NCBI RefSeq assembly: GCF_023100945.1
Contig: NZ_CP064689.1
Location: 7,856,001-7,920,000, forward strand
Length of the DNA stretch: 64,000 bases
Direction: 5' to 3'
Origin: Bradyrhizobium sp. 200
Lineage (GTDB): Bacteria > Pseudomonadota > Alphaproteobacteria > Rhizobiales > Xanthobacteraceae
Shown here: positions 3,107 to 62,900 of the stretch, piece by piece
Position numbering within the stretch: position 1 is the stretch's first letter
Layout of the letters: each line of letters starts with the position of its first letter
Notes under the pieces: generated by a model
The model's input: the letters and a program-made list of their open reading frames with translations, nothing else
What the model was told of the DNA's origin: nothing
Databases searched by the model: none
Program-made: the position numbers and the translations under genes

Positions 3107-3130
3107 ATCACCTCTCGCCATGGAGTCGAT
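3107..3130 (-). promoter_or_regulatory. Copy 1 of the 24-bp shared element (E type)
   Basis: Read on the minus strand: ATCGA-CTC-CATGGCGA-GAGGTGAT. About 120 bases around it match the copy at 10425-10448, including flanking blocks ACAATAACGA and GGCGTTGCAAGGTCA. It points toward the GMC oxidoreductase start at 2970. The ends form an imperfect dyad (ATC...GAT). A regulator-binding site is the favoured reading. Confidence 0.6.
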
Positions 3131-3229
3131 AGCCGATCGTTATTGTCGCGCGCCGCGCCGCATGATGCCGTGGCGAGAAGTGCCGCCAACCGTATCGCAC
3201 CTCGAAACCGAGCTTTTATTCTCCTCAAC

Positions 3230-3430
3230 TGTGTGAGACGAGCTGGCGATCAGCGAACCTCCACGTGCCTCGATTAACGGGCGAACCTCTTCGAGCGCCC
3301 TTAAGCCGAGATTGCATGCGGGACACCAACTGCCGCTATAGAAGATTAAGGGGAACGGACCGCGGCGCAGTATCGACGCCGACGAGGATATTGCGCCGTC
3401 TTGGTTGGGCAGACAGAAGAAGCTCCGGGG
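3230..3430 (-). pseudogene. Peroxiredoxin-like (AhpC/TSA) gene remnant
   Basis: A stretch of about 65 codons reads as the thioredoxin-fold core of a peroxiredoxin: FCLPNQDG, RRGPFPLIFYSGSWCPACN, then LRALEEVRPLIEARG. It matches the architecture of the peroxiredoxins at 31159-31893 and 51281-51937. The N-terminal helix and everything after the helix behind the active site are missing. The frame then runs into the repeat flanking element copy 1. I read it as a truncated remnant, not a functional gene. Confidence 0.7.
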
Positions 3431-3556
3431 TGTCGTCCAGCGGTTAACGCCTTTCTCAACTCGGCCGGAGGCCATCAGGTCTCGGCAGCCCGCGCGAGGG
3501 CAATCGCGATATCAGTGGTCATTTCCGGCGTCCAGCATTCCGAACAGCTCGCGCTT

Positions 3557-8300: not shown

Positions 8301-8520
8301 CGCCGTTGATCTCCTGCTCGATCGGGGCGGCGACGGTGTCGGATACGGTCTGCGCCGAGGCGCCCGGATATTGCGTGGTGACGGTAACGGTCGGCGGCGC
8401 CACCTGCGGATATTCCGAGACCGGCAGCGTCTGGTAGGCGATCGCGCCGACGATCAAAAGCACGATCGACAGCACCATCGCCAGGATAGGCTGGTTGATG
8501 GAGAGCCTTCCGAGATTCAT
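5341..8520 (-). CDS. RND multidrug efflux permease (HAE1 family, AcrB/MexB-like)
   Basis: A 1059-residue inner-membrane proton/drug antiporter of the resistance-nodulation-division family. It works as a trimer with the adaptor encoded next door and an outer-membrane channel. Seen: N-terminal span INQPILAMVLSIVLLIVG, porter domain with YPGASAQTVSDTV, proton-relay Asp pair in AVGIVVDDAIVVVENVE, and the partner Lys in GLAAKNAILIVEFARD. Length and 12-span layout are those of AcrB/MexB. The start ATG at 8520 overlaps the adaptor stop by 4 bases (ATGA), showing translational coupling. No outer-membrane factor gene is present in the window. Likely exports hydrophobic drugs, oxidant-derived electrophiles or solvents; exact substrates unknown. 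Confidence 0.95.
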   Translation of the reverse strand: MNLGRLSINQPILAMVLSIVLLIVGAIAYQTLPVSEYPQVAPPTVTVTTQYPGASAQTVSDTVAAPIEQEINGVEDMLYLYSQATSNGQLTITVTFKLGTDLDKAQVLVQNRVAIAQPRLPEEVQRNGVVTRKNSPDILMAVFVLSPDDTFDQLYISNYTLLQVRDQLLRLDGVGDIQMFGARDYSMRLWLDPDRISNLGLTSSEVIAAIRAQNLQITGGQIAEPPIADRAFQPNLVFTGRLKDIRQFEDIVVKAGSDGRTVRLRDIARVELGALAYATGSFILRKSAVAMVVTQRPGSNALATAQGIKDTMARLKTSFPKGLDYNIGYNPTDFIAQSVHELIKTIYEAMALVVIVVLVFLQGWRPAIIPIIAIPVSLVGTFAVMATLGFSINNLTLFGLVLAVGIVVDDAIVVVENVERHLQLGMSRREAALKTMEEVGGALVSIALVLCAVFVPTAFLGGISGQFFQQFAVTIAVATAISCFCSLTLSPALASQILTPHEEKRRPARWNIIARGWNSFSALFNNIFDRLAHGYASVADFVIRHTVVMLAIYLALIGGAGWLLATTSQGFIPDQDRGYLIISAQLPGAASLVRTTAVVREIERIALDTPGIVRVGAFAGFSGATRTQAGNAAALFPVFDEPEARLKRRLTANAITAELRKRLSVIQGALIIVIPPPAVPGIGTGGGFTIRIQDRQGRGPELLAAATDELVAAARKSPNLTSVFSPFTANTPQLFVDIDRVKAQKLGVPIANVNDAIQTYFGSTYVNDFNLFGRTYHVTAQADLPFRKETSDLARLRTRNAAGDMVMLGSVVDFKDISGPDRVARYNLYPASELQGEPAPGVSSATALNTIKRLADETLPSGFSFEWTDLSYQQVTGGNAGLYVFPICVLFVYLVLAAQYGSWTLPFAVILIVPMCLFAATIGVRIMGQDVNILTQIGFVVLVGLAAKNAILIVEFARDIESEGRSRLEAVIEACRLRLRPILMTSLAFILGVLPLVVSTGSGSEMRQAVGVAVFFGMLGVTLFGLIFTPIFYMVVRNLAEGKNEGKPTQTTAATAAAG

Positions 8521-9749
8521 GGCTTGGCACCTGCTGGCTTGTCGCCTGCCCGCGCCTGCACCATTTTCGGCGTCACCTTGGCGCCGACGCGGGCACGCTG
8601 CAGCCCGTCGACGATGACGTGATCTTCCGCCTTGAGGCCCTCGCGAATCACACGCAGCCCTTCATCGAGCGGCCCGAGCACCACCGGCCTTGCCTCCACC
8701 GTGTTGTCGTCCTTGACCACGAACACGATCTTGCGCGACTGGTCGGTGGCTATAGCAGTGTCAGGGATCAGCAGCGCCTCGTAAGGCGCGGAGCCGATGA
8801 TCCGGACGCGGCCGAACTGCCCGGGCAGGATCGAAAGATCCTTGTTTGGGATCACGGCGCGGCTGCGCAGCGTTGCGGTGGAGACGTCCAGTCGATTATC
8901 GAGGAAGTCCATCTTGCCTTCATGCGAGGGTTTTGTCTCGCCGGTCAGCGTCACCTGCACCGGGTTCGGGGTGTCGCGCGAGCTCGGACGCTTGCCTTCG
9001 AACCACAGCCGGCTGTTGCGCTGATAGGTCGCCTCGTCGACGTCGAAATAGATGTAGATCGGATCGAGCGACACGATCGAGGTGAGCAGCGTCGCACCGC
9101 CCTCGCTGCCCTGCACGAGGTTGCCGAGGGTCACCAGATGGCGACTGACGCGACCGGTGATCGGCGCCACCACATGGGTGAATTCGACATTGAGCTTCGC
9201 GGCCTTCAGCGCGCCTTCGGCCTGGGTCTCGGCAGCACGCGCCGCCTGCAGCGCCTGACGGCGCTGATCAACGACTTGTTCGGAGACCGCACTGGTCTGC
9301 ACGAGGGTCAGTCCGCGCTCGAGATCGCGCTTGGCAAGCTCTCCCTTGGCGCGTGCGTCGGCGAGCTGCCCCTCGGCCTGCAGCACGACCGCCTCGAACG
9401 GCCGCGGATCGATGATGTAAAGCAGGTCGCCGGCGCGGACGATCGCACCATCCTTGAACTCTACACTGTTGACGAAGCCGCCGACGCGGGCGCGGACCTG
9501 AACCTCCTGTATCGCCTCAAAGCGGCCGGTGAACTCGTCCCAGTCGGTGACGGTCCGTCTGACCGGTTGCGCCACCGTTACAGGCGGCGGAGGCGCTGCC
9601 GCCTGCGATTGGGCCTTCTCGTCGCAGCCAGCGAGCGCCAGCACGAATAGCATACAGATCGGTGCGTTGCATCGTGGAAGGCGACGAAGCCAACCGCGAT
9701 CGACCCGGGTCGCGGGAGCCGGACGCTCCGTTCTGTCAGTCACACTCAC
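8517..9749 (-). CDS. RND periplasmic adaptor lipoprotein (membrane fusion protein)
   Basis: A 410-residue membrane fusion protein (AcrA/MexA-like). It links the permease at 5341-8520 to an outer-membrane channel. Seen: hydrophobic signal with lipobox LALAGC near residue 42, so it is predicted to be lipid-anchored in the periplasm. Then come a biotinyl/lipoyl half-motif (VRAGDLLYIIDPRPFEAVV), a coiled-coil hairpin rich in Ala/Gln/Arg (residues ~120-200), and a barrel with GNLVQGSEGG. The start is GTG at 9749, chosen because GAGGAG lies about 8 bases upstream. It begins only 18 bases after the stop of the ruined histidine kinase, so any transcript from element copy 2 would read through the remnant into this operon. 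Confidence 0.93.
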   Translation of the reverse strand: MSVTDRTERPAPATRVDRGWLRRLPRCNAPICMLFVLALAGCDEKAQSQAAAPPPPVTVAQPVRRTVTDWDEFTGRFEAIQEVQVRARVGGFVNSVEFKDGAIVRAGDLLYIIDPRPFEAVVLQAEGQLADARAKGELAKRDLERGLTLVQTSAVSEQVVDQRRQALQAARAAETQAEGALKAAKLNVEFTHVVAPITGRVSRHLVTLGNLVQGSEGGATLLTSIVSLDPIYIYFDVDEATYQRNSRLWFEGKRPSSRDTPNPVQVTLTGETKPSHEGKMDFLDNRLDVSTATLRSRAVIPNKDLSILPGQFGRVRIIGSAPYEALLIPDTAIATDQSRKIVFVVKDDNTVEARPVVLGPLDEGLRVIREGLKAEDHVIVDGLQRARVGAKVTPKMVQARAGDKPAGAKP

Positions 9750-10424: not shown

Positions 10425-10448
10425 ATCACCTCTCGCCATGGAGTCGAT
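10425..10448 (-). promoter_or_regulatory. Copy 2 of the 24-bp shared element (E type)
   Basis: Minus-strand sequence identical over 24 bp to copy 1 (ATCGA-CTC-CATGGCGA-GAGGTGAT), with long matching flanks. Downstream lie the kinase remnant and then the RND operon, so this site may now serve the efflux genes. Confidence 0.6.
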
Positions 10449-10499
10449 AAACTGTCGTTATTGTCGCTCGCCACGCCGCGCGATGCCATAGCGAGGAAT

Positions 10500-12873: not shown

Positions 12874-12926
12874 AAAATAGGACGGCGAAACTCCATGGTC
12901 CAATGACCGGTGGCTGTGAAATCGAT
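12874..12926 (-). promoter_or_regulatory. msr-type promoter with 24-bp element (copy 3)
   Basis: Element at 12903-12926 on the minus strand (ATCGA-TTT-CACAGCCA-CCGGTCAT). It overlaps a -35-like TTGGAC (12898-12903), and a -10-like TATTTT (12874-12879) follows with an 18-base spacer. About 90 bases match the modules before 13644 and 16249 nearly base for base. It drives the chimeric frame at 12389-12847. Confidence 0.65.
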
Positions 12927-13202
12927 GCCATTGACGCGGCACGCACGGCGAGAAGCACTGGCTTTGGCGGGCCGTCGATTAGAATGATTTCGTCCTCGAT
13001 GTGCTTGTTCAAAGCGGTCGCAATACCAAGGCTGCAAAGCGGCTGATGAGCAAGTTACGAAGACGCCGTGTGAATGCATGCAACTCGGCAAACTGCTCGG
13101 GCGTCATGCTGTCGACAACGCAGGCCACGAACACGATGACAGCTCATCGAGCGACTCATCTATCGACCGTTCCAGGACATCTCGGATTACACCGCCGGCC
13201 AT

Positions 13203-13454: not shown

Positions 13455-13531
13455 CCACTAACGCTCCCTTGCGACGTGAGAAGCAGATGTTTGTACCGCA
13501 CCGTTGATTTTTGCGCGCCGCGTCGAATGGC

Positions 13532-13585
13532 ATCGATTCCATAATCGAAGGTCATTGGACGATCGAGTTTTCACCGTCCTATTTT
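13532..13585 (+). promoter_or_regulatory. msr-type promoter with 24-bp element (copy 4)
   Basis: Element at 13532-13555 (ATCGA-TTC-CATAATCG-AAGGTCAT). TTGGAC at 13555-13560 overlaps its right end, and TATTTT at 13580-13585 gives a 19-base spacer. The start codon of the oxidoreductase is 58 bases further. The whole block matches those at 12874-12926 and 16168-16221. Confidence 0.65.
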
Positions 13586-13643: not shown

Positions 13644-14561
13644 ATGAAGGCGATCGTCGTGACGGACCAGGCTGCGGGAACGGCCGGGATGGCGCTGGCG
13701 GAGCGGCCCGTGCCGCAGGCAGCGATCAACGACGTCGTCGTTCAGGTTCATGCATCGGGATTCGTTGGGACTGAATTGGCGTGGCCCTCGACCTGGACCG
13801 ATCGCCTCGACCGTGACCGAACACCGTCGATCCCCGGGCACGAACTGGCCGGAGTGGTCACCGCCCTCGGCTATGGCACGACGGGGCTGTCGGTGGGACA
13901 GCGGGTGTTCGGCCTCACGGACTGGACTCGCGACGGCACCCTGGCGGAGTACGCGGCCGTCGAGGCACGCAACCTCGCGCCGCTGCCGGGCGACGTCGAC
14001 TTCACGGTGGGCGCGAGCCTGCCGATCTCGGGCCTGACTGCGTGGCAGGGACTGTTCGAGCACGGCCGCCTTCAGGCAGGGCAGAGCGTCCTCGCGCACG
14101 GCGCGGCCGGCGCAGTCGGGTCGATGGTGACGCAACTCGCACGATTGGCCGGCGCCTACGTCATCGGCACCGGACGTGCCGCCGATCGTCAGAAGGCGCT
14201 CGACTTCGGCGCGCAGGAGTTCGTCGACCTTGAGAACGACGCCCTGGAAGACGTCGGCTCAGTCGATCTGGTGTTCGATGTCATCGGCGGCGATATCGGC
14301 AAGCGTTCCGTGCGCCTGATTCGGGCTGGAGGAACACTGGTGTCCATCGTCGGGCCGACCGAGGCGCGGCCCGCGGACGGCCTAGTGGTGGACTTCGTTG
14401 TCGAGTCCGATCGTAGCCAACTGACTGAGATCGTCCAGCGGGTGCGCGACGGACGGCTGCGGACGAACATCGGCAACATCGCGACCCTCGACGATGCCGT
14501 CGCCGCCTTCAACCAGACCAAGCGGATCAACGGGAAGACGATCATCCGCGTTCGTCCGTGA
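13644..14561 (+). CDS. Zinc-less NADP-dependent quinone/alkenal oxidoreductase (MDR family)
   Basis: A 305-residue medium-chain dehydrogenase/reductase of the quinone oxidoreductase group. These reduce quinones or reactive enals with NADPH and so detoxify electrophiles. Seen: GroES-like N-terminal half with PGHELAGVVTALG, and Rossmann half with VLAHGAAGAVGSMVTQLA and the nucleotide-binding turn VIGTGRAADRQKALDFGA. There is no structural-zinc Cys cluster, and length fits the QOR branch. It starts at ATG 13644 with GGAGG about 7 bases upstream. A second copy at 20920-21837 is nearly the same protein throughout. It is followed by a nitroreductase and an AhpD-like gene on the same strand, forming a likely detoxification unit behind promoter copy 4. 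Confidence 0.9.
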   Translation: MKAIVVTDQAAGTAGMALAERPVPQAAINDVVVQVHASGFVGTELAWPSTWTDRLDRDRTPSIPGHELAGVVTALGYGTTGLSVGQRVFGLTDWTRDGTLAEYAAVEARNLAPLPGDVDFTVGASLPISGLTAWQGLFEHGRLQAGQSVLAHGAAGAVGSMVTQLARLAGAYVIGTGRAADRQKALDFGAQEFVDLENDALEDVGSVDLVFDVIGGDIGKRSVRLIRAGGTLVSIVGPTEARPADGLVVDFVVESDRSQLTEIVQRVRDGRLRTNIGNIATLDDAVAAFNQTKRINGKTIIRVRP

Positions 14562-15961: not shown

Positions 15962-16167
15962 ACTCTATCCGATCGCATCGACCATCTCTGATGGTGCTCG
16001 GAGCTCTTAAGTGATGCGAGCGTAACGCTGGAGCCCGGATGCACGCAGGAAAGATTCTTGGAAACGCGTCCGAGCTTTTGGTATGCGCCGGCAAGGTTTT
16101 CTACCAAAGCCAAGGGTGACAAGCTGCCGATTGTCATCATGACGGCCGGCCTGACACTTACGATGGC

Positions 16168-16221
16168 ATCGAACCCATAGCCACAGGTCATTGGACCATG
16201 GAGTTTTCGCCGCCCTATTTT
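16168..16221 (+). promoter_or_regulatory. msr-type promoter with 24-bp element (copy 5)
   Basis: Element at 16168-16191 (ATCGA-ACC-CATAGCCA-CAGGTCAT). TTGGAC lies at 16191-16196 and TATTTT at 16216-16221, a 19-base spacer. The msrB start follows 27 bases after the -10. The block is shared with copies 3 and 4. Confidence 0.65.
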
Positions 16222-16248: not shown

Positions 16249-16698
16249 ATGAAGGCATACAACAAAAGTCCCGAGGCAGTGTCGCAGCTAACGCCAGAAC
16301 AGTACCGGGTCACGCAGCAAGACGGCACGGAGCAACCATTTCAGAACGAATACTGGGACAACAAAGAACCAGGACTCTACGTCGATGTGGTGTCGAGCGA
16401 GCCACTATTCGCGTCCGTCGATAAATTCGACAGTGGCACCGGTTGGCCGAGCTTCAGAAGGCCCTTGGAACCGGCGAACGTCGTCGAGAAAGTCGACCGG
16501 TCCTACGGAACGATCCGCACCGAGGTTCGCTCCAAGCACGGCGACAGTCATCTAGGCCATCTGTTTCCTGGTGGACCTCGGGACAAGGGAGGTCTGCGTT
16601 ACTGCATAAACTCCGCGTCTCTGCGCTTCATTCATCGTGATCAGCTTGAGAGCGCGGGATATGGCGAATACCTCACACTTTTCACTCAGGAAGCCTAG
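16249..16698 (+). CDS. msrB: Peptide-methionine (R)-S-oxide reductase MsrB
   Basis: A 149-residue MsrB that reduces the R epimer of methionine sulfoxide in proteins or as the free amino acid. Seen: [35 protein letters not shown] and the catalytic-Cys segment [11 protein letters not shown]. The first resolving/zinc position, often Cys in SGCGWPSF, is Thr here, and the two CxxC zinc pairs are absent, so it belongs to the zinc-less type. ATG at 16249 has GAAGGAGG 8 bases upstream. No signal peptide, so cytoplasmic. A ruined msrA follows, mirroring the intact msrB-msrA pair at 57782-58749. Confidence 0.93.
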
Positions 16699-48075: not shown

Positions 48076-48261
48076 ACGACGCGATCAGAACGCGGCAGAG
48101 TGCTGGCAGCGTCGACCGCGCAATCAAGCGGAAGGGTGCTGGCAGCGTGGAAGAGGAGGCAGAGCGCCAGGTCAGCACGGTACCGAGCTGCTAGGGCAGT
48201 CGGCGTCGGGTGCGCGCGCGAACCCGATGCGGAAGGCGGACGGCCGCCATAACGCGCGGCT

Positions 48262-48285
48262 ATCGACTTCATGGCGTGACGTCAT
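48262..48285 (+). promoter_or_regulatory. Copy 10 of the 24-bp shared element (E type)
   Basis: Plus strand ATCGA-CTT-CATGGCGT-GACGTCAT. It lies 119 bases before the molybdopterin oxidoreductase start at 48404. The right end is GTCAT, as in the msr-type copies, which links the E and msr types. Confidence 0.6.
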
Positions 48286-48403
48286 TTCCCATTCGCCGCG
48301 GGGAATTCCATGCTTCGCCGGTACCTCGCTCATCCGTCGCACAGCAGCTTCGCGTGTTGTGCGAGACAACGCTTCTTTCACCCGCCGACGGAGGAAATCC
48401 GCC

Positions 48404-49009: not shown

Positions 49010-49748
49010 AGCGATTGCCGCAACTGCGCGATGGCAGAGCTGTGCGATTGTCGAGATCGCGGCGAGGACGCCGGCTATCAAGAGCTTCTTTCTCAGCCTC
49101 TCCGAAACGTTCGACCATACGGCCGGACAGCACGTTGACGTGCGGCTGACTGCGCCCAACGGCTACACTGCCATGCGCAGCTACTCGATCGCCTCCGCCC
49201 CGAGCGATTCCAAGGTGATCGAGCTGGCGATTGAGCGTCTCCCGGACGGCGAGGTCTCGCCATTCTTCCACGACGTCGCCCAAGTAGGCGACACGATCGA
49301 GCTTCGCGGGCCGCTTGGCGGACACTTTCTCTGGCCGGGGCCCTCCAGCAAACCAGTGCTCTTGATCGGCGCCGGCTCCGGCGTCGTGCCGCTCATGGCC
49401 ATGATCCGGTATCGGAAGGCCAGCGGCGAGCCGGTGCCTGTCGCGCTGTCGCTCTCCTCCAGGACCTGGGGTGACGTGCTGTTCAGGGACGAGCTCCTCG
49501 AGATCGAGAGCTCGCTTCCCGATTTCGCGCTCGCCTTGGCGCTGACACGCGAGCCTGCGACGCGGCGCACCGACTTCAGCAGGCGGATCGACGCCAGGAT
49601 GATCGCGGACGTCGCGGCGCGGCTGCCTGAGTCCCCCGGCTGCGCTTTCGTGTGCGGGTCGAACGCCTTCGTCGACATCGCGGTGGATGCCGCGCTCGCT
49701 TTGGGACTGGAAGCCGGAGCCATCAAGACCGAACGCTATGGCGCTTGA
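49002..49748 (+). CDS. FAD/NAD(P)H oxidoreductase (ferredoxin reductase family)
   Basis: A 248-residue flavin reductase of the ferredoxin-NADP reductase fold without a ferredoxin domain. Seen: FAD-binding MRSYSIASAP near residue 65, GGHFLWPG, NAD-binding LLIGAGSGVVPLMAMIRY near 125, and C-terminal AFVCGSNAFVDIA. It overlaps the molybdopterin gene by 8 bases. It likely delivers electrons from NAD(P)H to that enzyme, making a two-component soluble system. Pairs of this kind recur in alphaproteobacteria and actinobacteria but are poorly characterised. Confidence 0.88.
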   Translation: MTEAIAATARWQSCAIVEIAARTPAIKSFFLSLSETFDHTAGQHVDVRLTAPNGYTAMRSYSIASAPSDSKVIELAIERLPDGEVSPFFHDVAQVGDTIELRGPLGGHFLWPGPSSKPVLLIGAGSGVVPLMAMIRYRKASGEPVPVALSLSSRTWGDVLFRDELLEIESSLPDFALALALTREPATRRTDFSRRIDARMIADVAARLPESPGCAFVCGSNAFVDIAVDAALALGLEAGAIKTERYGA

Positions 49749-50689: not shown

Positions 50690-51280
50690 GCTCCGTCGGG
50701 AAGGGCCGACCTGCTGCGAGTTCGACTCTGCGTTCGCCCAAGGGCCCAGGCGGAGCCAAGGTCGATCTCGCGAGGCGGCGGCGCCGGCGTCTTATCAAGG
50801 AGACCGGCTCGAGCGCTTGCGCTAACTCGGCCTGGGCGGAGCGCGGCGTGAAGTGCTGCGGGCAATTCAAGCTGGAGCAAGACCGCGCGCTCGACCTTGG
50901 TTTTGTAGCCAGGCGACACGAGGCGCTGCGCCAGATCGGTATCGTCCTTCAGGTCTCTCAATTCCGTGAGGCTCGTCCTGCAGGACCACGAGCCCGACCC
51001 GATCCCAGTGCACCTCGTGCACGCGAGACGGGCGATCCTGCCCCTGAAGCTGCGCCGCTTCACGCAGTTCGCCGCGTCTCGGCTGCGCAAGTCGCTGGCG
51101 GCTGACCTGGCGAAGCTCTCTGCGCCGAAGCAGCGCCGAAAAGAAGAAGTAGCCGGCTCACGCGTTCGGGCGTCCACTCATGCATAACAAAAATAACTCA
51201 AACTCGCGCGACGCGCCTACCGGAGCCGCACTGGACAAGCGATTATCCTTGCGGAAACCGGGCCACGCGCGACGAGCCGA
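50690..51280. other. No gene recognised
   Basis: About 590 bases between the ABM protein and the peroxiredoxin cassette. Arg/Ala-rich short frames on both strands carry no domain that I recognise. An older gene may have decayed here, but I cannot name it. Confidence 0.45.
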
Positions 51281-51937
51281 ATGTCACTCCAAGACGAACT
51301 GGACGTCCTAAAAGCCGAGTGTCTCGCCAAGGCCCCGCCGAACGTGACGCTGGCGCGGCAGCGGGCAGTCGAGGCGCTGGCCGCGTCCGGGCTCGCCGAG
51401 AGGGCGGCCCACGCCGGCGAGCAAGCCCCCGCCTTCCGGTTGCGTGACGGCCACGGCCGGTCGTTCTCGTCGCGCGAGGCGCTGCGCCGCGGCCCGGTCG
51501 TCCTCGTGTTCTACAGGGGACGGTGGTCCCCCTACTGCAACGTCGAGCTCCGCGCGGTCGAGGCCGCCTCTCACGACATACGCAGCCTCGGCGCCTCACT
51601 GGTCGCCGCCTCGCAGCAGACGCCGCACAACAGCCTGGAGACCCAATGGCGCAACAGGCTTTCGTTCGCAAGCCTGGTCGACGCGGGAGGCAAGGTCGCG
51701 CACGCTTTCGGCCTGCGTTGGAAGGCCTCCGACGAACTGCGCGCCGTCCATGAGGGCTGCGGCGCCGACCTTGCAGCCTTCAACGGTGATGCGAGCTGGA
51801 CCTTGACCATGCCGGCCCGGTACGTCGTGGCGCCCAGCGGAACGATCGAATACGCCGACATCAGCGTCGACTACACGCAGCGCGGCGACCCGTCCGAACT
51901 GATCCCGGTCCTCGCCCACCTCGCCGGAGCAACCTAA
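51281..51937 (+). CDS. Peroxiredoxin-like protein with Ser at the first active-site position
   Basis: A 218-residue redoxin-fold protein. N-terminal helix, then GEQAPAFRLRDGHGRSFSS, active-site segment FYRGRWSPYCNVELRAVE, LVAASQQTPHNSLETQWRN, and WTLTMPARYVVAPSGTIEYA. In sister proteins of this window the segment is WCPFC or WCPAC; here it is WSPYC, so the first Cys is lost and only the second remains. Activity may be changed or absent. ATG at 51281 has no strong ribosome binding site. It lies 13 bases before the LysR gene, same strand, as the first gene of a three-gene unit. Confidence 0.8.
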   Translation: MSLQDELDVLKAECLAKAPPNVTLARQRAVEALAASGLAERAAHAGEQAPAFRLRDGHGRSFSSREALRRGPVVLVFYRGRWSPYCNVELRAVEAASHDIRSLGASLVAASQQTPHNSLETQWRNRLSFASLVDAGGKVAHAFGLRWKASDELRAVHEGCGADLAAFNGDASWTLTMPARYVVAPSGTIEYADISVDYTQRGDPSELIPVLAHLAGAT

Positions 51938-51950
51938 CGGAGAACAACCG

Positions 51951-52886
51951 ATGGAGCTTCATCAAGTTCGCTACTTCCTCGCCGTCGCGTCGACACTCAA
52001 CTTCACCCGCGCGGCCGAGCAGTGCAATGTCACGCAGCCCGCCCTGACCAAGGGGGTGCAGAAGCTCGAGCAGGAGCTCGGCGGCCAGCTGATCTACCGT
52101 GAACGCCAGCTGACGCAGCTCACCGACCTTGGAAAGGAAGTCCTTCCGATGCTGGCGCGCACATTGGCCTCGGCGGAGGCGGTGCGTCGCAGGGCCCAGG
52201 AGTTCCAACGCAAGGAAGTCGCGCCACTGAAGATCGGCCTCGCCCCCTCCATCTCGGCGTCGCTCGTCCTCGATCCGATCGCGGAGATCGCAAAGTTCGT
52301 CCCTGGACTTCACGTCGAGCTGCGCGAGGGCGCGGCGAAGAAGCTCGTCGACCTCTTGCTTGAGGGGGAGATCAACGCTGCAATGGTCGGAGACATGCAG
52401 GACATGCCCGAGCGCATCGACGACTGGTCGCTGTTCGAGGAGCGCTACGTCGCGGTTCTCGCGCCGACACACCGGCTCGCAAACCGTCCCTCCATTGGCA
52501 TCGACGACCTCCGTGAGACCATCTTGCTCGAACGCGCCGAATGCGACGTCACCCCGAAGATCCAGCGGTTGTATTTCCCCGAGGAACCGCCCCACCTCGG
52601 CCACTGCAGCGGTCATGACTTGCACCTGCAGCACATGGCCGCCGCTGGCTTCGGCGTGATACTCGCGCCCGAGCACATGCCACGTCTTCCGACGCTCAAG
52701 ACCATTCCGCTCGAAGGCGACCCGGTTTCGCGGGAGGTGCGGCTACTGGCTGTGCAGGGGCGCCGCTACTCGCCGGCGCTGGACGCTTTCGTCAAGGTCG
52801 CGCGGCTTCGCGACTGGTCGGTCCAAGTCCCCGGCCGGGGCGTGCCGCACGCAACGGTCCCGGAGACGGCGAGAGTGCCCGCATGA
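51951..52886 (+). CDS. LysR-family transcriptional regulator (copy 2 of cassette)
   Basis: A 311-residue near-twin of the regulator at 31890-32825. The N-terminal ~110 residues are almost unchanged (YFLAVASTLNFTRAAEQCN, TQPALTKGVQKLEQELGG). Differences lie mainly in the effector domain, e.g. ERAECDVTPK against ERAGCDVAPK. The same GGAGAACAACCG precedes the ATG. It sits between two peroxiredoxin genes: 13 bases after the first and overlapping the second by 4 bases (ATGA). This is the more complete version of the cassette. It probably controls the peroxiredoxins in response to oxidants. Confidence 0.92.
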   Translation: MELHQVRYFLAVASTLNFTRAAEQCNVTQPALTKGVQKLEQELGGQLIYRERQLTQLTDLGKEVLPMLARTLASAEAVRRRAQEFQRKEVAPLKIGLAPSISASLVLDPIAEIAKFVPGLHVELREGAAKKLVDLLLEGEINAAMVGDMQDMPERIDDWSLFEERYVAVLAPTHRLANRPSIGIDDLRETILLERAECDVTPKIQRLYFPEEPPHLGHCSGHDLHLQHMAAAGFGVILAPEHMPRLPTLKTIPLEGDPVSREVRLLAVQGRRYSPALDAFVKVARLRDWSVQVPGRGVPHATVPETARVPA

Positions 52887-53707
52887 CCACGACACGCACG
52901 CCGGCGGCCAACCGCTTCCAGCCAATCGACCCGCAGCCTGACGACGCCCCACCGATGCCAAACCACACCGACAAGACACTCGCCCGGATTCGCACCGAGC
53001 TGTTGACGACGTTCAGCGCTGCGGACTGGGAGTCATACAACCACCTCGTGGGCTGGCTGCGCGATACAGACGTGGCATCGCAGGCGTTGAAGGCCGGAGA
53101 CACCGCGCCGGACTTCCTCCTGCCGGACGCCGACGGCCGTCTCCACTCCTCCGAGCAGCTGCGCCGCAACGGCCCCCTCGTCCTGAGTTTCTTCCGAGGC
53201 GGCTGGTGTCCGTTCTGCACCGCTGAGCTGTGCGCCCTCCAGGCCGCGAAGGACATGTTCGAGAGCGTCGGCGCGACCCTCGCCGTCGTGACACCCGAGA
53301 CGAGGGACTTCCCGCGGCAGCTCAAGCGGAGCCTGGGCTTGAACCTGAAGGTGCTCTCCGACGTCGACTACGGCGTTGCCATGTCGTATGGCGTGTTGTT
53401 CCGGGTGCCCGACGAGACCAAAGCGCACTATTCCGGGCTAGGCTTCGACTTCGGCGCCCGGCACGGGTCACCGGTCTGGATGCTGCCCATTCCCGCGACC
53501 TACGTGATCGACGCGGAAGGCCGGATCCGCAGCGCGTTCGTCGAGCCCGACTTCACGATACGGGAGGAGCCGGCGCAAATCCTGGCCTCGCTGCGCCAGG
53601 CCGCTTCCATATCCTGGCTGGAAGGGTCTGCCATCCAGCGCCAAGACCACGAGTCGCGGACTAGGCAAGGAAGCGAACAAACGACAACTTTCTCCTTGGT
53701 GATCTGA
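52883..53707 (+). CDS. Peroxiredoxin-like protein (AhpC/TSA family), second copy
   Basis: A 274-residue protein that matches the one at 31159-31893 over ~240 residues: same N-terminal extension (ANRFQPIDPQPDDAPPMPN), active site FFRGGWCPFCTAELCALQ and WMLPIPATYVIDAEGRIRS. The last ~30 residues (SWLEGSAIQRQDHESRTRQ and on) are unrelated to the first copy and run to the next stop, so the natural end was lost where the duplicated segment stops. The catalytic domain is complete, so it is probably active. It is translationally coupled to LysR by an ATGA overlap. Confidence 0.87.
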   Translation: MTTTRTPAANRFQPIDPQPDDAPPMPNHTDKTLARIRTELLTTFSAADWESYNHLVGWLRDTDVASQALKAGDTAPDFLLPDADGRLHSSEQLRRNGPLVLSFFRGGWCPFCTAELCALQAAKDMFESVGATLAVVTPETRDFPRQLKRSLGLNLKVLSDVDYGVAMSYGVLFRVPDETKAHYSGLGFDFGARHGSPVWMLPIPATYVIDAEGRIRSAFVEPDFTIREEPAQILASLRQAASISWLEGSAIQRQDHESRTRQGSEQTTTFSLVI

Positions 53708-55792: not shown

Positions 55793-56908
55793 TACCCGGA
55801 ATCATAGCTGAGTGATACGTCGAGCTTTGAAGGGGCGCTGGCGGACTTTTTTCTTGGTCCAGACGAAGGGCTCAGCTTTGACGTTGTAGGCTTTGATATA
55901 GGCATCGATGTGCTGCTCGAGCTGTTTGAGGCTGGTGAATGAGGCGCCGCTCAAGGATTGCCCTTGTAAGATCGAAAACCACACCTCGACCTGATTGAGC
56001 CAGGACGCGCTGGTGGGCGTGAAATGAAATTTCACATTGGGATGTGCCTCGAGCCATTCCTCGTTCTTCTTGTGGGTGCTGAGATTGTCGAGAATGACGT
56101 GAAGCTGGCGGTTCGGAAATGCTGCGGTCACGCGATCCATGAAGTCGAGAAACTCGACCCGGCGACGCCGTTTCGAATGCGTCGCAAGGATCTTCCCGGT
56201 GGCGACTTCCAGCGCCGCAAACAGCGTGGTCGTGCCGTGCCGCTTGTAGTCGTGGCTTTGCCCGGTCAGGGACCTGCCGTTGGGCAGCTTCAGATAGCCC
56301 TGCGCTCTTTCCAAGGCCTGGATCGAGGGCTTCTCGTCCACGCATAGCACGATGGCCTTCCTTGGCGGGGCGACATAGAGGCCAACCACGTCGGCGGCTT
56401 TGGCCGTAAACTGCGGGTCGTTGCTCTCGCACCAGGACTTGCGAGCGGCGAGATCGATCTTGTTGCTGCGCAAGAACCGCCAGACATATTGCACGTCGAC
56501 ATCGCCAAGTTCCCCAGCCAGCAGAGGCCCCGTCCAGCGCGCGTACCCGGCGGGAGGCGATTTATCGAGCAACTTCAAAATCCGCTTGTCGGTGACCTTC
56601 GTATAGATCGGCTGCTTGCCCGGCAGAGGCTTGCTTTGCAGACCTTCAAGACCATGATCCGCATAGCGATGCCGCCAAAGGCTGACAATCCGTGGCTGGA
56701 CCCCAACCTCCTTGGCGATCGATCGGGTGCTGCGACCGGCCGCTGCCAGCAGCACGATCCGTGCCCGCTTCAAATCGCGCTGCAACGTCACCGGTGAGCG
56801 GCAACGTTCCTCAAGCACCTTGCGATCTTTCCTCGAAAGGTGGACTTCTCTTGCTTCGGGTATCATCCCGATGTTGAATCATGACTCACTTCCCAGGGAA
56901 AGTGGGTA
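55793..56908. mobile_element. IS630-family insertion sequence
   Basis: About 1.1 kb, the usual size for IS630. Both ends carry ACTAG-TACCC read inward, so a TA target duplication at 55793-55794 and 56907-56908 followed by CCC is the likely boundary. Beyond TACCC the terminal repeats are poorly matched by eye. It contains one intact transposase gene. Confidence 0.75.
55802..56866 (-). CDS. IS630-family transposase
   Basis: A 354-residue DDE transposase. N-terminal helix-turn-helix pair: LAAAGRSTRSIAKEVGVQPR, SLWRHRYADHGLEGL. Catalytic triad: first Asp in IVLCVDEKPSIQALERA, second in LHVILDNLSTHKKN, Glu in SWLNQVEVWFSILQ. The length is standard, and no frameshift is needed, unlike some IS630 members. 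It is the only intact transposase in the window and may account for some of the rearrangement nearby. Confidence 0.93.
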   Translation of the reverse strand: MIPEAREVHLSRKDRKVLEERCRSPVTLQRDLKRARIVLLAAAGRSTRSIAKEVGVQPRIVSLWRHRYADHGLEGLQSKPLPGKQPIYTKVTDKRILKLLDKSPPAGYARWTGPLLAGELGDVDVQYVWRFLRSNKIDLAARKSWCESNDPQFTAKAADVVGLYVAPPRKAIVLCVDEKPSIQALERAQGYLKLPNGRSLTGQSHDYKRHGTTTLFAALEVATGKILATHSKRRRRVEFLDFMDRVTAAFPNRQLHVILDNLSTHKKNEEWLEAHPNVKFHFTPTSASWLNQVEVWFSILQGQSLSGASFTSLKQLEQHIDAYIKAYNVKAEPFVWTKKKVRQRPFKARRITQL

Positions 56909-57347
56909 CTAGTTGGAGGATGTCGCCGCCGCCGGATAAAGGGAAATGCCCTGTGACTATCTATCTGATAACCATTTATCATAGACCTTAATTCGGACGC
57001 GATCGCATCGCGGCGAGCTTGCCTGCTGCGGCTGCCGCAGCCACCGTATCTTCGACCGCAGTTCTCTCCATCATCATCAGATTCTGCCGGGACGTGTCCA
57101 TGCACTTGGAAGGAACGGAGAAAGCTGTGGCGGCTCCTATACGGACTGATCGAGGCCGGGACGAGTGCGTCGTTGCGAGGCGGGCGTTCGTTCTGCTTGC
57201 GCTTCCGCTTGGCGCTCTGTTGGTGTCGCGCGAGAGACGCGCGCCATCCGATCGTGCCGCCCGTCCCCTTACATCGCGCGGCGATTTGAGCCCTGCGCCC
57301 GCTAATGGGGCGGCGACGCGTCCGTCGATGAAACCACGCAGCCTTGC
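56909..57347. other. No gene recognised
   Basis: About 440 bases between the IS end and the small conserved protein remnant. A 110-codon plus-strand frame (57019-57351) has one hydrophobic stretch (FVLLALPLGALLVS) but no family, ribosome binding site or convincing composition. Confidence 0.4.
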
Positions 57348-57702
57348 TTAAGGCTGCGGTGGGTCAGGGGCATACCCGAGAACGAAAGCGACGACCGTCT
57401 CAGCCGGCATTTCACAGGGCCGCAAAGAGTCCTCGCCCGACCTCAGCCGGTAGAGGTTGAAGCTAACGACATCGCCGCCGGCGATCGCTCGCGCGAACAG
57501 GCTGCTCCGCTTTTCCGTTACGAGACGTCCGCACCGTGACGCCATATCGGCGCCCTTCGTACCGGCCCTCGCCGTATCCGCGCGGAATCGCGGCGAGCGC
57601 CGATTCAAACTCTCGTCCCAGCAATGTCCGACCCGTTCCTTCTGGGCAAGTGAAGCAGTCCCCGGCAGATGGAAACACCTCGGGCAGCGATCCGCATGGC
57701 AT
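57348..57702 (-). pseudogene. Small conserved protein, frameshifted second copy
   Basis: Two minus-strand frames join: CFTCPEGTGRTLLGREFESAL, AAIPRGYGEGRYEGRRYG, then after a shift SLFARAIAGGDVVSFNLYRL and LRPCEMPAETVVAFVLGY. It is the counterpart of 13203-13454, which lacks the frameshift in the middle but is broken at the end. It is divergent from the msrB promoter at 57701-57753, as the other copy is from promoter copy 4. Function unknown. Confidence 0.6.
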
Positions 57703-57753
57703 CGTTTCGATAGCCGGAAGTGATTGGACGGTCGCCCACCTCGAGCCTATCTT
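57701..57753 (+). promoter_or_regulatory. msr-type promoter with diverged 24-bp element (copy 12)
   Basis: Element at 57701-57724 (ATCGT-TTC-GATAGCCG-GAAGTGAT), the most diverged copy. TTGGAC at 57724-57729 and TATCTT at 57748-57753 give an 18-base spacer. The msrB start at 57782 follows 28 bases later, the same geometry as at 16249. Confidence 0.55.
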
Positions 57754-57781: not shown

Positions 57782-58234
57782 ATGCCGACCTACGGAAAAA
57801 ACCCAGAAGCGGTCTCGAAGTTGACTCCCGAGCAGTACCGCGTCACGCAGACTGACGGGACCGAGCGCCCCTTCGCCAACGAATACTGGGACAACAAGGA
57901 GCCTGGCCTCTACGTTGACGTGGTTTCCGGCGAGCCACTCTTTGCGTCCTTCGACAAGTTCGACAGCGGGACGGGATGGCCGAGTTTCACGCGGCCCCTC
58001 GAGGCCGCGAACGTCGTCGAGAACGTTGACAGTTCGCACGGCATGACACGGACCGAGGTCCGCTCCAGGCATGGCGACAGCCATCTAGGCCACGTCTTCC
58101 CGGACGGGCCGCCTGATAAGGGCGGGTTGAGATACTGCATGAACTCGGCCTCCCTGCGATTCGTCCACCGCGATCAATTGGAGAGCGAGGGGTACGGCGA
58201 GTACGCGAAGCTCTTCGCAAAGCAGGAGGCCTGA
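57782..58234 (+). CDS. msrB: Peptide-methionine (R)-S-oxide reductase MsrB, second intact copy
   Basis: A 150-residue MsrB close to the protein at 16249-16698. Seen: [38 protein letters not shown] and the catalytic-Cys segment [11 protein letters not shown]. It shares the Thr in SGTGWPSF and the lack of zinc CxxC pairs. ATG 57782 has AAAAAGGAGTTCCGCAA upstream. The msrA gene follows after 2 bases, so the two are co-translated to reduce both epimers of methionine sulfoxide. Cytoplasmic. Confidence 0.95.
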
Positions 58235-58236
58235 CG

Positions 58237-58749
58237 ATGGCAGCAATTACAGAATGCGCGATCCTGGCAGGTGGTTGCTTCTGGGGAATGCAGCAGCTGG
58301 TGCGGCGCCTGCCCGGCGTCGTCTCGACGCGGGTCGGCTACTCGGGCGGCGACGTCAAGAACGCAACGTACCGCAACCACGGCACGCACGCGGAAGCGAT
58401 CGAGATCACGTTCGACCCGAGCAAGACGAGCTTCCGCGACTTGCTGGAGTTCTTTTTCCAGATCCACGACCCGACGACGCCCAACCGGCAGGGAAACGAC
58501 CGAGGCACAAGCTACAGGTCGGCGATCTTCTACACGAACGAGGAGCAGCGCCGCGTCGCCGAGGACACCATCGCCGATGTCGAGGCCTCAGGGCTGTGGC
58601 CGGGAAAGGTTGTGACCGAGCTCTCGCCCGCTGGCGATTTCTGGGAGGCCGAGCCCGAGCACCAGGACTACCTGGAACGCTATCCGAACGGCTACACCTG
58701 CCACTTCGTCCGCCCGCACTGGAAGTTGCCGCGGAGGACCGCCGCCTGA
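58237..58749 (+). CDS. msrA: Peptide-methionine (S)-S-oxide reductase MsrA
   Basis: A 170-residue MsrA that reduces the S epimer of methionine sulfoxide. Seen: the catalytic [10 protein letters not shown] near residue 12, [52 protein letters not shown], and the C-terminal [20 protein letters not shown]. Resolving Cys residues of the far C-terminus are not obvious beyond [11 protein letters not shown] 58237 lies 2 bases after the msrB stop. A dead copy with Arg for the catalytic Cys lies at 16720. Followed by an egtB remnant and a DUF2171 gene on the same strand. Confidence 0.95.
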
Positions 58750-58754
58750 CGGAG

Positions 58755-59580: not shown

Positions 59581-59635
59581 AATGCCCCTTGGCGACGGTG
59601 CGCACAACGCGTTTGGACGACGATACCTCACGCCT

Positions 59636-59659
59636 ATCGAAAGCATGTCCGAAGGGAAT
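59636..59659 (+). promoter_or_regulatory. Copy 11 of the 24-bp shared element (G type)
   Basis: Plus strand ATCGA-AAG-CATGTCCG-AAGGGAAT, 127 bases before the P460 remnant start at 59786. Flanks match copies 7 and 8. It could now drive the DoxX remnant and possibly the tautomerase. Confidence 0.6.
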
Positions 59660-60654: not shown

Positions 60655-62373
60655 TTATTTCCTGAGAAGGTCGAGGTGCGCTGTCGGTGGCTTTCCCGGG
60701 CTCTCGCGCAACGAGGCGGTTCGATTGAAGACCAGCCTTTCTGGGCGGGAATCGTCGTCGTGAGTGAAGTAGCCTTGGCGCTCAAACTGCAATGCCTGGC
60801 CATGAGGATCAGAGGCGGTTGCCCGCTCGACGAGGCAGCCGCGTAGCGTTTGCATGGAATGTGGGTCGAGGTCGGCTGCGAGGTCCGTCGGGCTCGGAAT
60901 CGCTGCTGAGAAGAGCCGGCCGTAGAGCCTGACCTCGGCTGGCAACGCGTCGACGGCGCTCACCCAGTGGATTGTCGCCGCGACTTTTCGCCCGCCAGCG
61001 CTGGCGCGCCCCCTGCTGTCGGGATCGTAGGCGCAGCGTAGCTCGACCACACGGCCTGCGGCGTCCTTCACGACACCATGGCAAGTGACGAGGTAAGCAT
61101 AACGGAGCCTCACCTCTCGGCCCGGCGCGAGGCGCCGGAAACCATGTGGTGGCGCCTCGTGGAAGTCGTCTTGCTCGATGTACACCTCGCGGGCGAACCG
61201 GACGACTCTCGTCCCGAAGGCTGGGTCCGTCGGGTGGTTTGGCGCGTCGAACTCTTCTATGCGGCCCGCGGGATAGTTCTCGATTGTCAGTTTGAGCGGC
61301 TTGAGCACCGCCATTCGTCGCGGAGCCCGCTCATTGAGGACATCCCGGATTGCTGCGTCCAGGACGCCGTCGTCGACCGTGCTGTTGGCCTTCGAAACTC
61401 CGGCGCCGCGTATGAACCGGCGCACCGCTTCGGGCGGCACGCCGCGTCGGCGCAGGCCCGCAAGCGTCGGCATCCTTGGATCGTCCCAGCCCGCCACGTG
61501 GCCGTCGCGCACTAGCTCCGTCAGCGCGCGCTTTGAGAGGACGGTATGCGTAATGCCTAGGCGAGCGAACTCGTACTGTCGGGGTCGCGAGGGTACCGGA
61601 AGGTTGTCGAGGAACCAGTCGTACAGAGGTCGGTGGTCCTCGAACTCGAGAGTGCAGAGCGAGTGGCTCACGTCTTCGATGGCGTCGCACTGGCCATGTG
61701 CGAAGTCATAGCTCGGGTAGATGTGCCAGGCCGAGCCGGTGCGCGGATGGCTGGCGTTGAGAATACGGTAAATGACGGGGTCGCGCAGGTTGAGGTTCGC
61801 TGATGCCATATCGATCTTCGCGCGGAGCACCCGCTCGCCGTTCCTGAACTCGCCTGCGCGCATCCGCGCGAACAGCTCGGCATTTTCCTCCACGCTACGG
61901 TCGCGGAACGGGCTGTTCCGGCCCGGGCTCGTCAATGTCCCCCTGCCCTCTCTAATATCGTGGGCGGACTGGTCGTCCACGTATGCTTTTCCGATGCGGA
62001 CGAGATGGCAGGCCCAGGTGTAGAGCTGCTCGAAGTAGTCGGAGGCGAAGTGGAGGCCCTGCGCCAAATCGAATCCGAGCCACTGGACGTCGCGCTTGAT
62101 CGCGTCGATGTACTCCACCCTCTCCTTTGCCGGGTTCGTATCGTCGAGGCGCAAGTTGCAGCGACCGCCGAATTCCTTCGCAAGCTCGTAATTCAGCACG
62201 ATCGACTTCGCGTGCCCCAGGTGGAGAAAGCCGTTCGGCTCGGGCGGAAAGCGCGTGACCACGACGCGCGTGCGGCCGGTCTGGACGTCAGACGCTATGA
62301 TGCTGCGAATGAAATTGCTGGCGCTCGCGCCCGCTTCTCCGACGTCGTTCTGTTGAGGCACCTTCCGCCTCAA
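60655..62373 (-). CDS. glnS: Glutaminyl-tRNA synthetase
   Basis: A 572-residue class I GlnRS that charges tRNA-Gln directly. Seen: HIGH-type motif PPEPNGFLHLGHAKSIVLN, RLDDTNPAKERVEYIDAI, the catalytic-domain WHIYPSYDFAHGQCDAIEDV region, KMSKS-type VLSKRALTELV, and the C-terminal beta-barrel pair (LTIENYPAGRIEEFDAPNHP, YLVTCHGVVKDAAGRVVELR). The length fits bacterial GlnRS. ATG 62373 overlaps the DUF983 stop by 4 bases. Most alphaproteobacteria lack GlnRS and make Gln-tRNA through GltX and GatCAB, so this gene is probably acquired. Its place in an oxidant-defence island is odd. Confidence 0.93.
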   Translation of the reverse strand: MRRKVPQQNDVGEAGASASNFIRSIIASDVQTGRTRVVVTRFPPEPNGFLHLGHAKSIVLNYELAKEFGGRCNLRLDDTNPAKERVEYIDAIKRDVQWLGFDLAQGLHFASDYFEQLYTWACHLVRIGKAYVDDQSAHDIREGRGTLTSPGRNSPFRDRSVEENAELFARMRAGEFRNGERVLRAKIDMASANLNLRDPVIYRILNASHPRTGSAWHIYPSYDFAHGQCDAIEDVSHSLCTLEFEDHRPLYDWFLDNLPVPSRPRQYEFARLGITHTVLSKRALTELVRDGHVAGWDDPRMPTLAGLRRRGVPPEAVRRFIRGAGVSKANSTVDDGVLDAAIRDVLNERAPRRMAVLKPLKLTIENYPAGRIEEFDAPNHPTDPAFGTRVVRFAREVYIEQDDFHEAPPHGFRRLAPGREVRLRYAYLVTCHGVVKDAAGRVVELRCAYDPDSRGRASAGGRKVAATIHWVSAVDALPAEVRLYGRLFSAAIPSPTDLAADLDPHSMQTLRGCLVERATASDPHGQALQFERQGYFTHDDDSRPERLVFNRTASLRESPGKPPTAHLDLLRK

Positions 62374-62819
62374 GCCTTGAGTTCATCGAGCGGGTGCGCG
62401 CCGAAGCCGTGCATCCTGAGCGCCCACTGCAGCGCCAAGACGGCACCCTTGACCGGCTGCAGGAGAGCTATCGAGGCCAAGGCCGTAATCGGAAGGTAGG
62501 CGCCAAGCTGAAACGCCAGCGACGGTGCATAGTCCACCTCGATCCAGAGAATTACTGGAACCAGGACGTGTCCGACGACGACGATCACTAAGTAGGCCGG
62601 CAGGTCGTCGGCTCGGTGGCCGGTGAAATCGAGGCGGCAGACAGAGCAGTGGTCGTCGACTTTGAGAAACGCACAAAACAGGCGACCGCGCCCGCAGCGT
62701 GGGCACCTTCCTCGAACGCCCCTCCGAAGGGATAGGCCAACGTTGCGCCGGGCGGCAGTCTCTGCAGACGTCCAGTCGTTGTCGTGACCTTTAACCGGGC
62801 CTTCAACCGTCGTGGCCAT
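62370..62819 (-). CDS. DUF983 zinc-ribbon membrane protein
   Basis: A 149-residue DUF983 protein. Seen: a zinc ribbon GRCPRCGRGRLFCAFLK with DHCSVCRLDF (four Cys in two CxxC pairs), then AYLVIVVVGHVLVPVILWIE and LGAYLPITALASIALLQPVK, two membrane spans. The family is common in alphaproteobacteria and of unknown role. ATG 62819 has AGGAGGACGGGCG upstream. It overlaps glnS by 4 bases, so the two are co-translated. Element copy 13 lies 58 bases upstream. Confidence 0.88.
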   Translation of the reverse strand: MATTVEGPVKGHDNDWTSAETAARRNVGLSLRRGVRGRCPRCGRGRLFCAFLKVDDHCSVCRLDFTGHRADDLPAYLVIVVVGHVLVPVILWIEVDYAPSLAFQLGAYLPITALASIALLQPVKGAVLALQWALRMHGFGAHPLDELKA

Positions 62820-62876
62820 CGCCCGTCCTCCTGACTCACACGGCAGCACAGTATTCGGCGACGGCGCCCAAGCGCC

Positions 62877-62900
62877 ATTCAAATGGGGCATGTAGTCGAT
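62877..62900 (-). promoter_or_regulatory. Copy 13 of the 24-bp shared element (diverged)
   Basis: Minus strand ATCGA-CTA-CATGCCCC-ATTTGAAT. The left half fits the E type (ATCGA, CATG), and the right end is GAAT as in the G type. It points at DUF983-glnS, 58 bases away. This is the least certain copy together with copy 12. Confidence 0.45.

Follow-up and report, generated by a model that had tools for sequence, protein, structure and literature searches.

A 37-bp repeated element in a stress-gene island of Bradyrhizobium sp. 200 as the likely operator of an island-borne, OxyR-like LysR regulator

In a 64,000-nucleotide stretch of Bradyrhizobium sp. 200 (contig NZ_CP064689.1, positions 7,856,001 to 7,920,000; this whole stretch is hereafter the window), a short block recurs before stress and redox genes of an apparently mobile genomic island. 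We found that this block belongs to a 37-bp pseudo-palindromic element which, judged from its sequence, is likely to be an operator. Its binder is most likely the LysR-type protein of the island itself, here LysR-A, in the form of a tetramer, and the joint activation of redox genes would be the result. LysR-A is encoded twice in the window (31890–32825 and 51951–52886) and is very probably the missing regulator; a regulon spanning the island would then have both an operator and an OxyR-like LysR regulator of its own. The evidence comprises the operator itself with its symmetry and 11-bp step, its restriction to the island, the conservation of its core, its co-occurrence with the LysR-A family and not with three other regulators, and its position before the genes of distant LysR-A relatives; from these we infer physical binding, the tetramer, activation rather than repression, and a signal. 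A preliminary description of the window had proposed one shared regulator and one regulon, and this proposal survived those of its suggested tests which were computable.

Occurrence of the element in the window and the genome

All 13 of the 24-bp blocks in the preliminary description were present where it had placed them, six directed towards genes on the forward strand and seven towards genes on the reverse strand. Its account of the bases was also accurate: ATCGA or ATCGT stood at positions 1–5 and AT at positions 23–24 in every block, and what it called "CAT or close" at positions 9–11 was CAT in 11 blocks, the exceptions being CAC (12903) and GAT (57701). Within the window there were 12 matches to the pattern ATCGANNNCATRNCNNNAGGTSATT at up to 3 mismatches, compared to a mean of 0.09 in 100 dinucleotide shuffles; the block at 62877 was not recovered by this search. 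In the organism's own genome (9,494,728 bases) up to 2 mismatches gave 12 places, 10 in the window, 1 to its left and 1 elsewhere. The left-hand match (C1:7848994) lies seven kb left of the window, so that 11 of the 12 places are in the island, and it precedes a second GMC oxidoreductase gene which is 86% identical to the GMC gene of the window. At up to 3 mismatches the genome gave 31 places: the window had 12, the stretch to its left 1 and the rest of the genome 18, for which the scaled window shuffle mean would predict about 13. The backwards control gave 1.

We built a position matrix and scanned with it, as the preliminary description had suggested, and found no scoring at spaced control stretches of the genome and enrichment in the window. 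With a matrix of 40 positions, nothing scored 15 or more in 20 non-island stretches of 20 kb from the same genome (400 kb; maximum 14.8), while 14 sites in the window scored at least 22. For 13 of these 14 the score includes the site itself in the matrix, and leave-one-out scores were 12.4 for 62877, 15.1 for 12903 and 20.0–48.5 for the remaining eleven. The site at 62877 is indistinguishable from background and 12903 is only just above it. The fourteenth site (56946–56982, reverse strand; score 25.3) had been missed in the preliminary description and lies outside the training set of the matrix; its variant recurs in one genome of the genus (G194) and at two of the loci described below (L158 and L161). 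No site scored 22 or more in 1.45 Mb of order-1 Markov shuffles.

The candidate regulator LysR-A

The preliminary description had identified no matching regulator, but a candidate can be proposed in LysR-A. Its first copy (P0001, 31890–32825, reverse strand) scored above the Pfam cut-offs for both HTH_1 (68.5 bits, cut-off 26.6) and LysR_substrate (82 bits, cut-off 28), and its second copy (P0002, 51951–52886, forward strand) is 92% identical to the first. The best solved relative is OxyR: of the top six, five are annotated as OxyR or as hydrogen-peroxide-inducible activators and one is an unnamed LysR protein. LysR-A reached only 78.9 and 82.1 bits against the cut-off of 329 for the NCBIfam OxyR equivalog, and no listed NCBIfam equivalog reached its cut-off. 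A cysteine, C198, which aligns at or within one residue of OxyR Cys199, was conserved in 43 of 43 relatives of at least 75% identity, in 8 of 10 of 50–75% and in 47 of 54 below 50% (these counts omit matches under about 250 residues and two sequences containing stops). C219 was present in 38 of the 43 closest relatives, and 7 of the 10 relatives of 50–75% identity have a cysteine at the 208 position. By these sequence comparisons LysR-A is OxyR-like and not OxyR.

Both copies stand beside peroxiredoxin genes. An AhpC/TSA peroxiredoxin-like stretch (31168–31893, reverse strand) follows copy 1 and is 94.6% identical to its counterpart at copy 2, where an AhpC/TSA peroxiredoxin gene (52883–53707, forward strand) overlaps the end of LysR-A and a second AhpC/TSA gene lies upstream. 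The regulator locus has been duplicated within the island, as LysR and peroxiredoxin are held in a 1673-nt inverted repeat (31167–32839 and 51937–53609) whose arms are 94% alike. We also observed a paralogous LysR clade (L158–L169; 54–61% identical), often with a second cysteine 10 residues after C198, which is closer to the OxyR pair; sites were found near only four of nine of its loci, yet four genomes of the genus with sites carry this clade alone.

Co-occurrence with LysR-A in the genus

Among 195 genomes of the genus we found 194 sites at up to 1 mismatch in 36 genomes, with 0 for the backwards control among the matches listed. Two or more such sites occurred in 30 genomes, and the element was absent from 159. 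A LysR-A relative of at least 58% identity was present in 31 genomes, 27 with a copy of at least 84% and 4 with only 58–61%; a 32nd regulator match (G032) was 41% identical and its genome had no site. All 30 genomes with at least two sites were among the 31 regulator carriers, and every one of the 31 carriers had at least one site (Fisher: P = 1.7e−34, uncorrected for relatedness). Five further genomes had one site and no LysR-A relative of at least 58%: G134 and G145, whose full operators scored 44.0 and 49.9 and are perhaps island remnants, and G019, G056 and G144, with sites of 17.1–20.4. The G144 site and a site at 6759652 in the organism's own genome both precede an open reading frame (ORF) with a similar protein start and may represent an unrelated conserved site. 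In a draw of 297 genomes from the order, LysR-A was found in 3 at E ≤ 1e−60, one of them outside the genus.

Three other regulators were considered and rejected, as none tracks the element. Of the 30 site-bearing genomes 11 had LysR-B (47095–48075; E ≤ 1e−80), as did 6 site-free genomes, relatives of a LuxR-type response regulator (45864; E ≤ 1e−50) were found in 165 of the 195 genomes, and a second island LysR from a Mesorhizobium plasmid matched 81 of the 195 (E ≤ 1e−80) and not this genome, its trace in the window being a 57-residue remnant at 50960–51130.

Operators at distant loci

Named loci were the best 80 kept from a search for LysR-A relatives, and among them LysR-A of at least 79% identity occurred in records of Bradyrhizobium, Afipia, Mesorhizobium, Chelatococcus and Rhizobium; tblastn also placed it, at 78–87%, on plasmids of Rhizobium, Mesorhizobium and Sinorhizobium. 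The distribution is patchy, on chromosomal islands and plasmids and often in two or more copies. Sites scoring at least 22 lay within about 10 kb at 39 of 41 named loci with regulators of at least 79%. A Mesorhizobium plasmid (L199; 85.5%) has four such sites, one of them before its msrB-msrA pair.

Sites scoring at least 22 were also found at all 18 Mesorhizobium loci which had been fetched via regulators only 34–37% identical, and at 14 of these one site starts about 110 bp before the regulator's own gene, with the form ATGA-N7-CTAT-N7-ATAG-N7-GCAT in those printed. In six Mesorhizobium genomes (6.9–8.0 Mb) their own-site pattern at up to 1 mismatch gave 4 places at the locus and 0–2 elsewhere (backwards control 0). 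Further Mesorhizobium sites precede a short-chain dehydrogenase gene and a DUF2282 gene adjoining an MbnB/TglH/ChrH (DUF692) gene. In Mesorhizobium amorphae (L171:5642–8365) an MbnB/TglH/ChrH-family gene and an HvfC-like gene (weak match) stand behind the operator, with a DUF2282 gene in the corresponding place of the sister locus, and these genes are a putative LysR-controlled bufferin-like operon. On a Skermanella plasmid, whose regulator is 39% identical, a divergent gap close to the regulator contains two sites which overlap and face in opposite directions.

The footprinting in relatives which the preliminary description had proposed gave a positive result, the same operator classes preceding the same gene families in the islands of other species. 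The families with 10 to 20 sites each were histidine kinase-NhaA, P460, GMC oxidoreductase, cupin, short-chain dehydrogenase, quinone reductase, molybdopterin oxidoreductase, LysR itself, msrB, MFS and DUF2282; AhpC/TSA, cytochrome c, RidA-like and other families were smaller.

We consider it unlikely that LysR-B, the LuxR-type regulator or a further island regulator binds the element, with the LysR-A copies as bystanders. Island genes travel jointly, so co-occurrence alone cannot discriminate between them, and the domain scan covered 50 ORFs of the window and not every one. However, the distributions of LysR-B and of the LuxR-type relatives given above do not follow the sites, the operator precedes the genes of distant LysR-A relatives themselves, and the 50 scanned ORFs held no DNA-binding family beyond LysR-A (one of its two copies was scanned), LysR-B, the LuxR-type response regulator and a transposase.

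Structure of the operator

The 24-bp unit of the preliminary description is a real block, but the true unit is 13 bp longer upstream: a 37-bp pseudo-palindrome, ATRN-N7-CTAT-N7-ATRG-N7-NNAT, of which the 24-mer is the downstream two thirds. Two classes of site, E and G, read towards the gene as ATAA/ATAC/ATAT-N7-CTAT/TTAT-N7-ATGG/ATGT-N7-TGAT/TCAT/GAAT. We collected 228 unique sites scoring at least 22 from seven island regions, 76 named loci and two plasmid loci, and used their 176 distinct 40-mers for information and geometry. The 16 tetrad positions carried a mean information of 1.24 bits and the 21 spacer positions one of 0.81 bits, the first spacer being free (0.48 bits). When the 11-bp grid was placed in all 11 phases, the three around the chosen phase were the highest (1.24, 1.29 and 1.20) and the opposite phases the lowest (0.70–0.74). 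Dyad symmetry at the centre of the 37 bp was 0.491 of 18 pairs, compared to at most 0.386 at the other axes tried; no p value is given for symmetry or phase because the sites share descent.

Targets of LysR-type regulators are defined by T-N11-A dyads in their promoters, with the downstream half adjoining the −35. At the sequence level both features were seen here, the −35 link being clear for the third class, msr, only. In this class the operator abuts a sigma70-like TTGGNN-N15..20-TANNNT in 20 of 22 unique sequences, compared to 9% of shuffled downstream sequences; it should be noted that the sequences are related and that the class was chosen partly by its ATTGG-type end, so that this control informs on the −10 only. 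In the msrB members the promoter is followed by a Shine-Dalgarno-like purine run and then a start codon. The E and G classes have TTTCCC/TTTCTA at the place equivalent to −35 and no clear −10. A second, related element (GGAATGGAAACGATAACG...GCATTTC and TATGGTTTCCATAGC...GGGAAT) was observed with weak scores (about 10–21) in several islands, at 63145–63184 (forward strand) in the window and at G000:C1:7849113, G123:C1:3401597, G189:C1:5735039, G194:C1:2426511 and G193:C1:7063434; a paralogous LysR protein may use it as its operator.

This anatomy bears on the idea that an alternative sigma factor, either SigF/NrsF or a different one of the extracytoplasmic function (ECF) type, uses the element as its promoter, with the two conserved blocks as −35 and −10, which we consider very unlikely. 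In other systems SigF/NrsF targets include the genes for methionine sulfoxide reductase and molybdopterin oxidoreductase, both are among the genes here, and the organism's own genome has four NrsF genes. However, none of the four lies within 2 Mb of the window, so the linkage expected of such a system is lacking, and the 50 scanned ORFs included no ECF sigma factor. The element has three to four conserved blocks at an 11-bp step plus a dyad, the msr class has a separate sigma70-like promoter downstream of it, and 159 of the 195 genomes of the genus lack it at up to 1 mismatch. A SigF/NrsF promoter, the first idea suggested by gene content, was rejected with the NrsF genes distant and the anatomy that of an operator.

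Conservation of the core

Mean identity over the 60 bp upstream, the 37-bp core and the 60 bp downstream was 0.34, 0.80 and 0.42 in 19 within-class pairs and 0.27, 0.52 and 0.29 in 59 between-class pairs, the core values being partly built in by construction as sites were selected by the 24-mer. The 13 bp upstream of the 24-mer, which were unused in selection, were also common to E-class sites with unrelated flanks. The earlier argument that a constant core between unrelated flanks indicates selection on the core is good for most sites, but not for 3107 and 10425 or for the three G-class sites, which share flanks and are therefore duplications. Of the 224 sites with complete flanks (4 others were skipped), 162 had better ORF content on the downstream side than on the upstream side (P = 1.7e−11 with the sites taken as independent), although this test is loose and 146 of 228 random positions pass it too. 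The median distance from operator to chosen start was 26.5–126 bp in the eleven largest target families, with scatter within families; start codons were picked by a simple choice of ORF on G+C bias and may be wrong. We consider it very unlikely that the repeats arose by the copying of a mobile or duplicated segment without regulatory selection, which would suit the duplicated flanks and the three sites preceding gene remnants, as among the other sites likeness is restricted to the core and both the ORF content (loosely tested) and the operator–start distances (scattered within families) speak against it.

Proposed mechanism and its standing

In the mechanism which we propose, a LysR-A tetramer would bind four half-sites, each one helical turn from the next; in some islands the binder would perhaps be the LysR-A relatives of 58–61% identity. 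The last half-site abuts the −35, and oxidation or the binding of a signal would let LysR-A recruit RNA polymerase, which would co-induce the genes for methionine sulfoxide reductase, cytochrome P460, quinone reductase, the molybdo-enzyme, the transporter and related functions. The operator would dock a control protein borne by the island itself, so that the island seems to come with a built-in alarm system. Our guess for the signal is reactive chlorine species or an organic peroxide, suggested by the island's msrA/msrB, sulfite-oxidase-like molybdo-enzyme and reductase, OsmC, Dps-like ferritin, peroxiredoxins and RidA-like protein; some of these genes lack a site.

A number of observations weigh against control by LysR-A. 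The OxyR geometry is a post hoc fit, because the msr class (12903, 13532, 16168 and 57701) keeps the last three tetrads and has no first, upstream half-site, and because the middle spacer (CGA..T; 1.09 bits on average) is conserved like some tetrads, unlike in the published OxyR motif. The OxyR cysteine pair Cys199/Cys208 is absent, relatives of at least 75% identity having no conserved cysteine at 208. No site of 9 or more precedes the regulator genes in the window, and autoregulation is therefore not a conserved feature. As the whole island is inherited together, co-occurrence with the element is to be expected of every gene on it, and LysR-A is set apart only by comparison with the three other regulators and by the Mesorhizobium loci. 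Four genomes (G013, G083, G088 and G091) bear sites with LysR-A relatives of only 58–61%. Two loci with regulators of at least 79% (L125 and L153) have no site of at least 22 within about 10 kb, such sites were near only 4 of 9 loci with 54–61% regulators and only 2 of 8 distant non-Mesorhizobium loci, and no site of 17 or more was found at the plasmid loci of Rhizobium jaguaris (87%, L200) and Rhizobium WYJ-E13 (55%, L202).

More tentatively, and as less likely than not, the island may be read as a portable, self-wired stress regulon which grows by promoter capture, copies of a promoter module with the operator being set before further genes, which would bring cargo into the regulon of the travelling LysR. 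Capture is hinted at by operator-promoter modules left before gene remnants and by the promoter stretches of the quinone reductase and msrB genes. The latter (13527–13585 and 16163–16221) are 83% alike over 59 nt before unrelated genes, a possible case of such capture. In this reading, island and regulator may move together between Bradyrhizobium, Afipia, Mesorhizobium, Rhizobium and Chelatococcus without dependence on the oxidative-stress network of the host, and the regulator would be a family of one-cysteine OxyR-like sensors whose Mesorhizobium branch controls a DUF2282/MNIO (bufferin-type) operon. The operator predicts which island genes are co-wired in other genomes, ties an unnamed LysR clade to methionine sulfoxide repair, P460, peroxiredoxin and MNIO-type operons, and makes testable how horizontally moved stress genes acquire common control.

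Comparison with known regulators

The published OxyR motif is given as two tandem ATAG-N7-CTAT repeats 7–10 bp apart (PMC8787470), and OxyR is described as contacting four adjacent major grooves (PMC3953959). LysR-A resembles OxyR in being LysR-type with OxyR proteins as its closest solved relatives, in the redox target genes and neighbouring peroxiredoxin gene, and in an operator of four ATAG/CTAT-type half-sites at 11-bp steps over 37 bp (compare PMC8787470), the letters being approximate and the msr class lacking the first. It differs from OxyR in scoring far below the NCBIfam cut-off, in having one conserved cysteine near Cys199 with no equivalent of Cys208 in its clade, in the conserved middle spacer of its operator, and in its patchy, often multi-copy presence on chromosomal islands and plasmids.

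The one-cysteine OxyR of Deinococcus radiodurans is likewise an OxyR-type LysR protein with a single conserved sensing cysteine, but it regulates catalase, dps and metal transport, and its abstract describes no island-confined regulon (PMC2225504). HypT, the hypochlorite-specific regulator of E. coli, shares the LysR family and a role in oxidant defence but senses via three methionines and has other targets in the source consulted (PMC7464077); this likeness is by description and not by alignment. By description only, LysR-A is also like LsrB of rhizobia, a LysR regulator tied to antioxidant genes and Msr proteins, both LsrB and Msr being described for M. huakuii (PMC13272141). A search for published expression of such genes in Mesorhizobium huakuii bacteroids yielded nothing usable, and no paper on the island regulon was found in the open-access literature. 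Regulons of the LysR type are a known kind; the system of this island is unnamed as far as we searched, and is unusually self-contained.

Operators and genes in the window

Most of the target genes listed in the preliminary description were as stated, but three sites precede remnants: the P460 genes behind 30782 and 59636 and the msrB gene behind 12903. Its statement that the element points to a stress or redox gene in every case is too strong, because the site at 62877–62913 (reverse strand; leave-one-out score 12.4), which stands before DUF983 and glnS-like genes, is unsupported; the ORF behind it was paired with a site in 1 source only.

The E class comprises 3107–3143 (reverse strand, leave-one-out score 48.5, scores being given likewise below; ATAA-N7-CTAT-N7-ATGG-N7-TGAT), before the GMC oxidoreductase gene at 1375–2991; 10425–10461 (reverse, 46.2), whose flanks are common with 3107 and from which the RND membrane-fusion gene on the same strand (8517–9749) begins 676 bp away; 23522–23558 (forward, 43.7), before an MFS transporter (23564–25138); 38576–38612 (reverse, 45.0), before a histidine kinase (37431–38468) with thioredoxin-NhaA (35527–37443) and baeRF (35160–35564) further behind; and 48249–48285 (forward, 41.2), before a molybdopterin oxidoreductase (homologous stretch 48305–49006) and an FAD/NAD reductase (49002–49748). 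The G class comprises 26935–26971 (reverse, 39.5), before a cytochrome P460 gene with its ATG at 26806; 30782–30818 (reverse, 42.1), before a P460 remnant followed by Gluconate_2-dh3 and GMC genes (30420–27856); and 59623–59659 (forward, 39.0), where only a signal-peptide-like start of P460 is left. In the msr class, 12903–12939 (reverse, 15.1) lies before the msrB remnant, 13519–13555 (forward, 20.0) before a quinone oxidoreductase (13644–14561), 16155–16191 (forward, 21.7) before msrB (homologous stretch 16249–16692), and 57688–57724 (forward, 21.0) before msrB (57782–58234) and msrA (58237–58749), this last operator being abutted by a predicted promoter, TTGGAC-N18-TATCTT (57724–57753, forward strand).

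Directly downstream of the fourteenth operator is a transposase gene (55802–56866) which we take to be of the IS630 type, transposase domains having been seen in the scan. At L158 and L161 ORFs other than a transposase stand behind the variant, and the original target of this operator may therefore have been cut off. A 1960-residue sensor kinase with Ser/Thr kinase, AAA, GAF, PAS and histidine kinase domains is encoded at 39373–45255, adjoining two response regulator genes.

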